A DNA stretch of 64,000 nucleotides from Saccharothrix sp. NRRL B-16348 (lineage in GTDB: Bacteria; Actinomycetota; Actinomycetes; Mycobacteriales; Pseudonocardiaceae). Positions within the stretch are counted from its first letter, which is position 1; every line of letters starts with the position of its first letter. Shown piece by piece: positions 1-3,081 of this stretch. The stretch covers positions 124,001 through 188,000 of the forward strand of contig NZ_LGED01000232.1 of assembly GCF_001280085.1 (NCBI RefSeq), given 5' to 3'. A program made the position numbers and the translations under genes. A model generated the notes under the pieces. That model had not been told where the DNA came from. It saw nothing but the letters and a program-made list of their open reading frames with translations, and ran no database searches.

Positions 1-709
1 CGTAGGCGACGTTGCGCGGGTGGATGCTGCTGCCGAGCCCGCGCATGACCCGTTGCCGAGCGGGCTGGCCGAAGATGGTCGAGCCGACCGTGTCCACGCC
101 GATCAGCCGCACGTCCGGCCAGTACCGGCGCAGGGCCGTGACGACGCCCGCGCTGTGCCCGCCCGTGCCGACGCTGCACACCAGCACGTCCGCGTGGTCG
201 AGCTGGGCCGCCAGTTCCCGCGCCAGCCCCGCGTACCCGGCGGGGTTGTCCGGGTTGTTGTACTGGTCGGGCCAGTACGCGCCGGGCAGCCCCCGCAGCA
301 CGTCGTGCAGCCGGTCCAGCCTGGCCTGCTGCCAGCCGCCGGTCGGGTGCGGTCGGTCCACGACCTCCAGCCGCGCGCCGTGCGCACGCAGCAACGCGCG
401 CATCGACGGCTCCAGCTCGTGGTCGACCACCAGCACCACCGGGTGCCCCAGCGCCTGGCCGGCGAACGCCAGCCCGAGGCCGAGCGTGCCGCTGGTCGAC
501 TCGACGACCACCGCGCCGGGGCGCAGCTCGCCGCGCTCCCGTGCGGCTAACAGCATCGCGACCGCCGAACGGGCCTTCATGCCGCCCGCGCTCAGGCACT
601 CCAGCTTCGCCCAGAACCCGCCGTGCCGGTGGGGCAGCGGCGTGTCGATGCGGGCGACCGGGGTGTTGCCGAGCAGGTCGAACAGGTGGGGGTTGCGCCG
701 CACGGTCAC
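1..709 (-). CDS. PLP-dependent cysteine synthase family enzyme (SbnA-like), partial
   Basis: The gene runs off the left edge, so only the first 236 codons are visible. The GTG start at 709 overlaps the TGA of the upstream gene (GTGA), which indicates translational coupling. The product is a fold-type II PLP enzyme. It opens with [10 protein letters not shown], carries a Lys in [12 protein letters not shown] (the expected Schiff-base position), a substrate loop [12 protein letters not shown], and a phosphate-binding GTGGHSAG. In staphyloferrin B synthesis SbnA joins O-phosphoserine and glutamate on the way to diaminopropionate. A similar amino-acid-joining role in a metallophore is my inference from the DUF364 and ATP-grasp neighbours and the Zur-type promoter. 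An ordinary cysteine synthase is the alternative, but the neighbourhood argues against it. Confidence 0.88.
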
Positions 710-1542
710 CGGACCCGTCCCGGGGCGCGGTAGTGGTGCAGCGTGGTCGGGCCGCCGTGCAGCCAGAAGAACGGGTACGGCTCCGCGGACACCGCCGTGA
801 CGCCCGAGCCGAGGAACCACGGCACGATCGCGCTCGCGGTCTGGGCGAACACCACCAGCGGCCGGTCATCGGCCACGGCCGCGCGCAGCAGCGGTTCGAA
901 GCTGCCGTTGCCGACCGTCATGCCGGAGGCCAGCACCAGGTCGCAGTCGGCGACGGCGGCGAGCGCGTCGGTGACGATCGGCTCGCCCCACTCGGTGCGG
1001 CCGCCCTTGAGGTCGCACGGCACGTACTCGAGGCCGCGGGCGCGCAGGTGGTGCAGCAGCGAGTTCACCACGCCGACGACCAGGACCCGTTGGCCGGGCA
1101 CGGCGTCGAGCAGGTCGACCACCGCCGACGCGCGGGCCATCGACTTGGCCAGGGAGTCGCCGGCGCCGATCACGACGTGCCGCGCGGCGGCGAGGTGGTG
1201 GGGGTGGGCGTGCATGAGGTACGCGTCCAGCACCGCCGTGCGGATCGCGGTGTCCGGGTGGGCGAGCAGGTCGGCGACCGTCTCGCCGACGCACTCGGTC
1301 ACGGTCGCGTCGTCCGCGCCCTCGGGCTCGACCGCGCACGAGCCGACCGCGTCACCGACCCGGACGCTGATCACCGTGTTGCGGTACACCTGGTCACGCG
1401 ACACGTGCCGCGCGCCCTGCCTGGTGGTGAACGCGACGCTGACCCGGGACTCGGTGGGGTCCGGCCCCAACGCACCCGCCCGTGCCAGCGCGATCAGCTC
1501 GGTGACGCCCGACAGGGGCCGCCGGTCGGCCTGCGCGGTCAC
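706..1542 (-). CDS. DUF364/DUF4213 Rossmann-like protein (putative heavy-metal chelation domain)
   Basis: A 278-aa protein. I chose the GTG at 1542 because GGGAGG lies a few bases upstream and because it overlaps the TGA of the 70-aa ORF. The N-terminal part, with a His-rich stretch near [15 protein letters not shown], resembles DUF4213. The C-terminal part is Rossmann-like ([15 protein letters not shown], then [17 protein letters not shown]) and ends in [10 protein letters not shown], which fits DUF364. Pfam labels both families as putative heavy-metal chelation; no enzymatic reaction is established. The stop overlaps the start of the SbnA-like gene. Acting in the same Zur-type operon, it may modify, bind or sense the metal-ligand product. 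Precise function unknown. Confidence 0.85.
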
Positions 1543-1751
1543 GCGACGCCTCCCGGCGTTCGGCCTGCCCGCGCGGTGGGGCGGTGTCCGGCCGGTTCCC
1601 GCATGCCGGAGGTGTCGGCGGCCCGGTTTGCCGGCGCGGTAGGGCGGTGTCCGGCCGCGTGCCGGGTGTCGGCGGGCCGGTTTGCCCGCGCGGTGGGGCG
1701 GTGTTCGGCCGCAGGAGGGGTGTCGGCGGCTCGTTCGGCGTGCGCGGTCAC
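1539..1751 (-). CDS. 70-aa repeat-containing ORF between two coupled genes
   Basis: A small open frame begins with a GTG overlapping the ATP-grasp stop (GTGA) and ends in a TGA overlapping the DUF364 start (GTGA). Both ends are therefore exactly coupled. The body is three imperfect tandem units of 18, 18 and 21 residues, each containing a GHRPTARANR-like stretch. It is rich in Arg, Ala, Pro and His and probably disordered. Its first 20 bases (GTGACCGCGCACGCCGAACG) match the start of the DUF364 gene at 18 of 20 positions. This suggests that it arose by duplication of that gene start together with repeat growth. It could encode a real peptide, or it may simply be an in-frame repeat that keeps ribosomes moving between genes. 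I do not recognise a family. Confidence 0.5.
   Translation of the reverse strand: MTAHAERAADTPPAAEHRPTARANRPADTRHAAGHRPTAPANRAADTSGMREPAGHRPTARAGRTPGGVA
1560..1730 (-). repeat. Tandem repeat, 54/54/63-bp units
   Basis: Three consecutive imperfect copies occupy 1730-1677, 1676-1623 and 1622-1560 on the minus strand. Shared cores are GCCGACACC near the start and CACCGCCCCACCGCG near the end of each unit. All unit lengths are multiples of three, so the reading frame of the 70-aa ORF survives expansion or contraction. Confidence 0.85.
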
Positions 1752-3004
1752 GCGGTGGTCTCCGCGTAGCGGACGTCCAGGGTGCCGACGACGCGCTCGG
1801 CGCGGGTGCGGGCGTCGGTGTCCGGGGAGGTGACCATGACGTGCCCGAGGTAGCTGTTGTTGCTGGTCGGTTCGCCGGCGCGGTGTCCGGCCGACTTCGC
1901 CGCCCAGTCGACCACCTCCGGGTTCGCGGCCAAGGCCTCGACGCCGTCGATCCCCGCCACCACGCCCGCGCGGGGCGGCAGCAGGAACGAGACGGCCGCG
2001 CTGCGCACACCGGTCTCCCGTGCCCGCAGGTCCGGTTGGCGGCCGACGGCGAGGTCGGCGAACACCGAGGGCAGGTCGATGCCGGTCACCCGGCGGACCA
2101 GCTCGGTGATCCGGTTGCCCGCCGGGCGCGGGTTGACCTCGATCAGCCGGGGGCCGTCGGCGGTCAGCTTGACCTCGGTGTGCGCCACCGCGTGGTCGAG
2201 GCCCAGCGCGTCGATCGCGCTCACGGCGGTGTCCACGGCCGCGTCCCGGTCGGCGTCGCTCAGCGCGGCCGGGAACATGTGGCCGCTCTCCACGAACCAC
2301 GGCCGCCCGGCCAGGCTCTTGTCGGTCACCCCGATCACGTACGTCGTGCCGGCCGCGGTCACCGTCTCGACGCTCACCTCGGGGCCCACCAGCAGCTCCT
2401 CCAGCAGCACGGTCGGCACCCGCTCCTGCCCTCGGGCGTTGACCGGGAACGCCTCCAGCGCCAGGTACGCCTCGCGGAGCGCGGCCTCGTCGCGCACCTC
2501 GCGCACGTGCATCCCCGCGCACAGGTCGACCGGCTTGACCACCAGCGGGTAGCCCAGCTCGGCGGCGGCCTTCGCGGTCGCGGACCACTCCTGGGTCAGC
2601 GCGAACCGCGGTCCCGGCACGCCTGCCGCCGAAGTGGTCGTGCGGGTGAGGTCCTTGCGGTAGGCGCGTTCGACGGCCTTCGGGTCCGCGCCGGGCAGGC
2701 CGAGGTGCGCGGCCACGGCGGCGACGGTGGAGAGGTAGTAGTCGCAGGAGGAGATCACGCCGTCGAACGCCAGCACGCCGTGCACGCGTTCCACATAGGA
2801 CAGCAGCGACGGCACGTCGTTGGTCTCGGCGGTGAGCACGTTGTCCGCGGTCAGCAACGGGTGCGGGTGCGCGGGCGCGGAGCGCAGGTAGTGCTGGAGG
2901 TCGCGGGTGAGGAAGGTGAACCGGTGGCCGGACTCGTGGATCGCCCGTGGCAGCAACGAACTCATCGCGCCGACCCAGCTCTCGATCATCAACAAGTGCG
3001 CCAC
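1748..3004 (-). CDS. ATP-grasp domain ligase
   Basis: A 418-aa protein starting at GTG 3004, with GGAGGA six bases upstream. An ATG 51 bases farther upstream lies inside the Zur-type box and -10 element, so it is not the start. The central region has the ATP-grasp pattern: LGYPLVVKPVDLCAGMHV (Lys and glycine-containing loop), VLLEELLVGPEVSVE, and the metal-binding end HTEVKL followed by LIEVNPRPAGNRI. Such enzymes activate a carboxylate as an acyl phosphate and join it to an amine. As first gene of the operon with DUF364 and SbnA-like partners, it probably ligates building blocks of a metallophore. Its substrates cannot be read from sequence. Confidence 0.9.
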   Translation of the reverse strand: MAHLLMIESWVGAMSSLLPRAIHESGHRFTFLTRDLQHYLRSAPAHPHPLLTADNVLTAETNDVPSLLSYVERVHGVLAFDGVISSCDYYLSTVAAVAAHLGLPGADPKAVERAYRKDLTRTTTSAAGVPGPRFALTQEWSATAKAAAELGYPLVVKPVDLCAGMHVREVRDEAALREAYLALEAFPVNARGQERVPTVLLEELLVGPEVSVETVTAAGTTYVIGVTDKSLAGRPWFVESGHMFPAALSDADRDAAVDTAVSAIDALGLDHAVAHTEVKLTADGPRLIEVNPRPAGNRITELVRRVTGIDLPSVFADLAVGRQPDLRARETGVRSAAVSFLLPPRAGVVAGIDGVEALAANPEVVDWAAKSAGHRAGEPTSNNSYLGHVMVTSPDTDARTRAERVVGTLDVRYAETTA

Positions 3005-3045
3005 GCGTGCTCCTCCGGAGGGGGCGTCGGACCGGGACTGAGGAA

Positions 3046-3081
3046 TGGTAATCATTATCAGTCCGGTGGCGAGGCCGCCAA
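3046..3081 (-). promoter_or_regulatory. Zur/Fur-type box overlapping the -10 of the metallophore operon promoter
   Basis: On the minus strand 3060-3046 reads TGATAATGATTACCA. This is a near-perfect 15-bp inverted repeat close to the known actinobacterial Zur consensus TGAAAATGATTTTCA. A promoter fits over it: -35 TTGGCG at 3081-3076, a 16-bp spacer and -10 GATAAT at 3059-3054. Metal-loaded repressor would then cover the -10. The box lies 42 bp upstream of the chosen GTG start. It does not resemble the DmdR/IdeR iron box (TTAGGTTAGGCTAACC type), so zinc is the better guess. Confidence 0.75.

Follow-up and report, generated by a model that had tools for sequence, protein, structure and literature searches.

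A Zur-boxed operon around a DUF364/SbnA-like gene pair in Saccharothrix sp. NRRL B-16348, a candidate pathway for a small zinc metallophore

Introduction

Opine metallophores of the Cnt type are synthesised, exported by a major facilitator superfamily (MFS) protein and re-imported by a Nik-like ABC system, all from one locus, and zincophores of the ethylenediamine-disuccinate (EDDS) type are made by SbnA/B-like enzymes together with a lyase. Coelibactin, EDDS and pseudopaline are named as Zur-controlled metallophores in a review of Zur (PMC6103462). SbnA of the staphyloferrin B pathway and the fungal aspergillomarasmine A (AMA) synthase are described as cysteine-synthase-like enzymes that join O-phosphoserine to an amino acid (PMC12751119). 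Here we analyse an operon at the left end of a 64,000-nucleotide stretch of the 10.9-Mb genome of Saccharothrix sp. NRRL B-16348 (the window; contig NZ_LGED01000232.1, in our numbering G000:C231:124001-188000, where G, C and L numbers are handles for genomes, contigs and loci). Its first genes encode an ATP-grasp ligase, a DUF364 protein and a pyridoxal phosphate (PLP) enzyme resembling SbnA. Judging from gene content, gene order, conservation, a promoter motif and active-site residues, this is probably a Zur-repressed operon for making, exporting and reimporting a small zinc metallophore that is not built by a non-ribosomal peptide synthetase (NRPS).

A conserved Zur-like box at the promoter

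An earlier reading of the sequence alone (the sequence-only reading) had noted a 15-bp palindrome overlapping a -10 element and three genes behind it, and all of these were confirmed (Table 1). Written as the degenerate pattern TGRTAATSATTAYCA, the box is the sole zero-mismatch site in the 10.9 Mb, and at two mismatches the genome holds 10 sites for this pattern and 0 for a backward-pattern control. It agrees at 10 of 11 fixed positions with the Zur motif obtained by chromatin immunoprecipitation in Streptomyces coelicolor (tGaNNatSatNNtCa; PMC5472717), a motif independent of the sequences in the present set. The promoter search found one site, and 50 shuffles gave a mean of 0.0 (sd 0.2).

Conservation was assessed in relatives of the window DUF364 protein, for which a scan with one genome per species gave 294, the best 80 of these 294 being kept. 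They derive from Saccharothrix, Umezawaea, Lentzea, Actinokineospora, Streptoalloteichus, Micromonospora, Actinoplanes, Nonomuraea, Candidatus Frankia, many Streptomyces and others, and the nearest named relatives are Saccharothrix. The box was present at no fewer than 13 of 15 positions in 68 of the 77 relatives that were assessable, i.e. had 150 bp of clean upstream sequence; with 350 bp upstream the count was 69 of 80, including an artefact in L085, where the contig ends. Compared with the published S. coelicolor motif, at least 9 of the 11 fixed positions were matched in 65 of the 77 (shuffles 3.0%) and 10 of 11 in 25 of the 77 (shuffles 0.29%). Elsewhere in the loci of the same relatives, 18 sites reached 13 of 15 in 1.55 Mb, the L085 site included. 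The operon has a conserved box at its promoter, one criterion for an actinobacterial Zur regulon, and its Zur-type regulation, which the sequence-only reading had proposed, is strongly supported by these motif data.

Operon organisation and encoded proteins

Counted from the box, the genes encode the ATP-grasp ligase, the DUF364 protein, the SbnA-like enzyme, an enolase-superfamily (epimerase-like) protein, an MFS protein, an S-adenosylmethionine methyltransferase, a substrate-binding protein (SBP; SBP_bac_5), two permeases, fused ABC ATPases and a GNAT protein. The operon leaves the window leftward and continues for about 8.8 kb beyond its edge, where about 350 bases of the SbnA-like gene also lie; this side was read in locus L009 (window position = L009 position minus 18000). 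From DUF364 to GNAT, stop and start codons overlap by about 4 bp at nearly every junction, except for a gap of 205 bp upstream of DUF364, the only long one in the operon, and one of 10 bp upstream of the SBP gene. The three genes nearest the box had been taken as coupled; this holds for DUF364 and the SbnA-like gene, whereas ATP-grasp and DUF364 are split by the 205-bp gap, which contains a 54-bp repeat. Order and strand of the ten genes from ATP-grasp to ATPase are kept in 72 of the 80 relatives; among the exceptions, L055, L069 and L076 cover only short stretches, N makes up 22% of L071, and the methyltransferase was not found in L049. A match to the GNAT protein lies on the operon strand in 35 of the 80, on the opposite strand upstream in 19, and was not found in 26.

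The DUF364 protein scores 36.5 bits against PF04016, above the cut-off of 23, and its model shows the same fold; the DUF4213 domain that had been named alongside was not reported by the Pfam scan of this protein. The PLP enzyme reaches 253.8 bits with the SbnA equivalog TIGR03945, under the cut-off of 349.95, and is therefore called SbnA-like and not SbnA, as in the sequence-only reading; its best PDB match is SbnA itself (5d87). Its PLP lysine, K45, is invariant in 83 aligned SbnA-like sequences from all three classes of loci described below, and the DUF364 residues Y53, N55, D106, N160, C176, D177, Q234 and E254 are likewise common to all classes (83 sequences), as would be expected if the enzymes of all classes catalysed a common core reaction. 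The ATP-grasp protein has the L-amino acid ligase BL00235 (3vot) as its best PDB match and is remotely similar to BacD and the dapdiamide synthase DdaF; its top NCBIfam row is an argininosuccinate-lyase fusion, of which only the ATP-grasp part (positions 24-397 of 890) is matched. Dipeptide epimerases of the enolase superfamily are recognised by KxK, the D/E/D metal ligands, a second Lys and DxD, and the epimerase-like protein, aligned to 1jpd and 3iji, has KxK, D, E, D, K and DxD invariant in 78 aligned sequences. It scores 158 bits with the NCBIfam dipeptide epimerase equivalog (cut-off 343) and 245.1 with DgcA (cut-off 400). Its C-terminus (L009 16458-16660) is a low-complexity Thr/Pro/Glu tail extending about 65 residues past the structure-aligned part.

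Transport is represented by an MFS exporter and a Nik-like five-part importer with two ATPases in one chain. The fused ATPases score 297.8 bits with NikD, 289.4 with CntF and 286.9 with CntD, no Cnt cut-off being reached, and the best matches of the SBP and both permeases are nickel-type models. The sequence-only reading had pointed leftward for an exporter, a lyase and an SbnB-like gene, and had counted ordinary cysteine metabolism there as evidence against a metallophore; instead of cysteine metabolism, that neighbourhood holds a Nik/Cnt-like importer as well as the exporter, but neither an SbnB-like gene nor a lyase. In Pfam scans, the 11 operon proteins contained no NRPS or IucA/IucC domain, which bears out the proposal of a small-metallophore system without these enzymes, and no lyase, nicotianamine-synthase-like or opine-dehydrogenase domain. 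An SbnB model matched the whole genome at two places only, on C113 (424.4 bits, cut-off 326.9) and on C228 (under the cut-off), with none on C231. The SbnB gene over the cut-off (G000:C113:135184-136158) adjoins another SbnA-like gene at about 136.3-137.1 kb, a pair that we read as a separate diaminopropionate-type pathway of the same genome.

These findings bear on whether the operon makes an EDDS-type aminopolycarboxylate zincophore. The SbnA-like enzyme and the Zur box would suit one, EDDS itself being Zur-controlled (PMC4993170, PMC9252823), yet without SbnB or a lyase in the operon the parallel drawn earlier is not supported in its details. Set against the EDDS gene content given above, the ATP-grasp, epimerase, DUF364 and methyltransferase genes have no counterpart, and we regard an EDDS-type product as very improbable.

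Table 1. Features of the operon and its promoter. Positions are those of the window unless preceded by L009.
Feature	Position	Strand	Remarks
Promoter-like site TTGGCG-16-GATAAT	3054..3081 (3081..3054)	-	box covers the -10
Zur-like box TGATAATGATTACCA	3046..3060 (3060..3046)	-	7-1-7 palindrome, one mismatched pair
ATP-grasp ligase, L-amino-acid-ligase type	1748..3004	-	LAL_C2 C-terminal domain; start GTG 3004 or ATG 3055
Imperfect tandem repeat	1611..1748		54-bp unit, 2.2-2.5 copies, in the ATP-grasp/DUF364 gap
DUF364 protein	706..1542	-	PF04016; model shows DUF364 fold
SbnA-like fold-type-II PLP enzyme	1..709 (first two thirds)	-	start 709; ends L009 17651
Epimerase-like protein	L009 16458-17654	-	
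MFS protein	L009 15280-16461	-	
Methyltransferase	L009 14501-15283	-	
SBP (SBP_bac_5)	L009 12955-14490	-	
Permeases	L009 12014-12958 and 11247-12017	-	
Fused ATPases	L009 9778-11250	-	
GNAT protein	L009 9230-9781	-	

Three classes of loci with a DUF364/SbnA-like pair

When the phylum was sampled evenly, 6 of 396 genomes, the host among them, had a relative of DUF364 at E <= 1e-15, which marks the operon as accessory; in the host's family, relatives occur in 82 of 200 genomes. The family search gave 102 DUF364 places including the window's own, and 80 of the other 101 were fetched, the 21 left out all being among the 22 lowest-scoring. With L125 and L126, which came from the phylum search, they form a set of 82 loci, some from the same species as the best 80 relatives, with overlapping taxa. 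Sorted by gene content, they fall into class I (n = 32), class II (n = 29) and class Ib (n = 21).

Class I, to which the window belongs, has matches to ATP-grasp and epimerase. A Zur box (score at least 16) is present in 32/32, as is the ten-gene order, a count to be read with the definition of the class by two of these genes, and the cobalamin-riboswitch pattern in 0. Class II combines DUF364 and SbnA-like genes of a second type (L125, L126, L141-L150, L195-L211), accompanied by Fec-type importer genes (26 of 29), MFS (25), another methyltransferase (18) and a GHMP kinase (17; PF00288), which could supply O-phosphoserine, the type of substrate used by SbnA. A Zur box lies within the 17-20 kb locus in 27 of the 29, about 9 kb downstream of DUF364 in L147 and L209, and the riboswitch pattern was found in 0. 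Class Ib has the window-type DUF364 and SbnA-like genes with no ATP-grasp or epimerase match (L131-L138, L140, L182-L193), absence here meaning no tblastn match at 1e-8 to the queries used, so that unmatched extra genes are possible. All 21 have the exporter and 13 an adjoining Nik-type importer.

A cobalamin riboswitch was detected in 21/21 class Ib loci, 15 by Rfam and 6 by pattern. The pattern occurs in 16 of the 21 and starts 321-447 nt upstream of the DUF364 match on the same strand; RF00174 was found at 85-100 bits in 15/15 loci run (L131-L138, L140, L182, L183, L185, L186, L188, L191), including five missed by the pattern, and six loci have the pattern alone (L184, L187, L189, L190, L192, L193). 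Because the pattern missed 5/21, its zeros in the other classes are soft; Rfam detected no cobalamin riboswitch in 12 of the 29 class II loci (L125, L126, L141-L150), in L139 (the sole fetched class I locus run), or in L009, L010, L113 and the window. Class Ib has no Zur box near the start, and its one Zur-like score above 16 (L140, 9 kb downstream) doubles as a background rate. In 8 of the 21 class Ib loci the queries match DUF364, SbnA-like gene and exporter alone, and in the three such loci checked (L131, L133, L191) no obvious importer adjoins, a gene content suggesting that two enzymes may be sufficient for an exported molecule. The ATP-grasp ligase looks like class-specific tailoring, since class Ib keeps DUF364, SbnA-like gene and exporter without a match to it.

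The classes form separate groups in the DUF364 tree (SH-aLRT, a likelihood ratio branch test, 94, 100 and 96), and the class labels need 2 changes, the minimum possible, in both the DUF364 and the SbnA-like tree; in the latter, class I by itself takes 2 label changes. Classes I and Ib co-occur in nine genomes (G532, G474, G496, G458, G447, G441, G515, G548, G592). Because two copies under two metal-linked switches share a cell, the core product would be expected to handle metals, the copies serving different ones, and a core product without a metal role is hard to square with this co-occurrence. In the host genome, a class II-type SbnA-like gene adjoins an ATP-grasp gene on C168 (L010 5538-10398), and a class II-type MFS gene lies close by; this locus lacks both a DUF364 match and a Zur box.

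The class comparison also bears on a zinc-regulated peptide antibiotic or signal, i.e. a dipeptide resembling dapdiamide or bacilysin that the ATP-grasp ligase would make and a Dpp/Nik-type system would recapture as a peptide, not as a metal complex. The resemblance of the ligase to L-amino acid ligases and, remotely, to BacD and DdaF, the dipeptide-epimerase residues and the matches of the SBP to peptide binders all agree with such a product. It is nevertheless unlikely, because class Ib retains the pair and the exporter under a cobalamin riboswitch without ATP-grasp or epimerase matches, importers of Nik type (class Ib) and Fec type (class II) recur, and metal-linked control across all classes suits a chelator better.

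Class Ib loci are candidate cobalt metallophore cassettes on account of the cobalamin riboswitch and, where present, the Nik-type importer. As the pair recurs across three classes under Zur or B12 control, it is by its sequence context probably the core of a class of metallophores for zinc and, presumably, cobalt. We give about even chances to the wider proposal that this class is undescribed, has a minimum of two enzymes and an exporter, and is plugged into different metal circuits, with Zur and a Nik-type (I) or Fec-type (II) importer for zinc and the cobalamin riboswitch (Ib) for cobalt, class Ib making a dedicated cobaltophore under B12 shortage.

Zur-like sites elsewhere in the host genome

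A scoring matrix was built from 23 class I operon boxes, for which reason class I scores are partly high by construction; class Ib, class II and ZnuA sites are independent of it. The window box scores 28.9, and apart from it the maximum in the window, L009 and L010 is 10.6. Sites of 18.4 and of 21.0 and 18.5 lie upstream of two ZnuA genes, on C56 and C216, respectively. Three sites (25.6, 25.2 and 17.9) fall in a cluster on C13 that contains L28 by Pfam and, by our interpretation, other ribosomal-protein paralogues and CobW-like genes. A box of 27.4 (L113 4722; C216:142722) has an MFS gene on one side and a Fec-type ABC importer on the other, a possible uptake route for a second metallophore. 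The genome has four Fur-family genes; a site of 16.2 (L115 4027, C268) lies near one of them, possibly zur itself, and the three other regions (L116-L118) score at most 7.7.

With these sites, a metallophore for nickel, cobalt or copper, with Zur merely co-regulating, can be weighed. The top NCBIfam matches of the importer are nickel and staphylopine systems, and class Ib indicates cobalt. For the operon itself we nonetheless judge another metal improbable, somewhat more so than a peptide product, as class I and II boxes fit Zur and the same motif marks the ZnuA genes of the host.

Proposed pathway

We propose the following reactions, metal and product for the candidate zinc metallophore operon. 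With ample zinc, Zn-Zur would occupy the box and, because this sits over the -10, block transcription; when zinc is scarce, the operon would be transcribed. By analogy with SbnA and AMA synthase, the SbnA-like enzyme would join an amino acid through a new C-N bond to an activated serine, either O-phospho- or O-acetyl-L-serine, to give a small aminocarboxylate, and DUF364 would complete the same core molecule by a step of unspecified chemistry. In class I, the ATP-grasp ligase may then attach an amino acid through an amide bond, the enolase-superfamily enzyme invert one alpha-carbon of the dipeptide, and the methyltransferase methylate the product. The MFS protein would export it and the Nik/Cnt-like ABC system re-import the zinc complex.

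Several observations weigh against this pathway. Nine of the 77 upstream regions lack the box at the level of at least 13, and L068, L072 and L078 are partial clusters that neither a short stretch nor N accounts for. The top C13 site (25.6) precedes a methyltransferase-like gene and not a ribosomal gene. Among PDB sequences, those closest to the SBP are Lmo0135, the opine-binding protein AgaA and other members of family 5, rather than NikA or CntA, and importers of its kind also transport peptides. Every NCBIfam match shown for an operon protein lies under its cut-off, so that these matches do not fix the substrates.

Significance and comparison with known systems

If the core role of the pair is correct, DUF364, a domain of unknown function, gains a concrete testable role, and zinc scavenging beyond ZnuABC in many soil actinomycetes would be accounted for if the operon acts as proposed. 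Should class Ib hold, it would to our knowledge be the first case of a biosynthesised cobalt chelator controlled by a B12 riboswitch. The route may be missed by mining rules based on NRPS, NRPS-independent siderophore (NIS) or opine enzymes, though antiSMASH 7 is described as having rules for aminopolycarboxylic-acid and opine-like metallophores (PMC10320115), and its aminopolycarboxylic-acid rule might catch the operon. By title or abstract start, none of the matches listed in the open-licence PMC literature concerns a DUF364/SbnA metallophore, a search in which cobaltophores and riboswitch-controlled SbnA genes were not included. Related aminocarboxylates such as aspergillomarasmine A are of interest as zinc-stripping enzyme inhibitors (PMC8319579). 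The sequence-only reading did not foresee the epimerase-like enzyme, the methyltransferase, the importer, the wide conservation or the B12-riboswitch class.

The operon resembles the staphylopine and pseudopaline (Cnt) systems in combining synthesis, MFS export and Nik-like ABC re-import in one locus, and its ATPases score 289 (CntF) and 287 (CntD) bits, with Cnt cut-offs unmet; it differs in that its 11 proteins lack nicotianamine-synthase-like and opine-dehydrogenase domains. With the [S,S]-EDDS system of Amycolatopsis japonicum it shares Zur control, an actinomycete host and independence of NRPS and NIS enzymes (PMC4993170). Relative to the EDDS gene content outlined in the Introduction, it has an SbnA-like enzyme in common, is without SbnB and lyase, and has a ligase, an epimerase, DUF364, a methyltransferase and an importer in addition. 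Unlike SbnA, which works with SbnB, the SbnA-like protein has DUF364 as its partner. The function of the DUF364 proteins Dhaf4260 (3l5o) and PH1506 (3npg) is unproven, whereas here DUF364 is linked with an SbnA-like protein and with control by Zur or B12.

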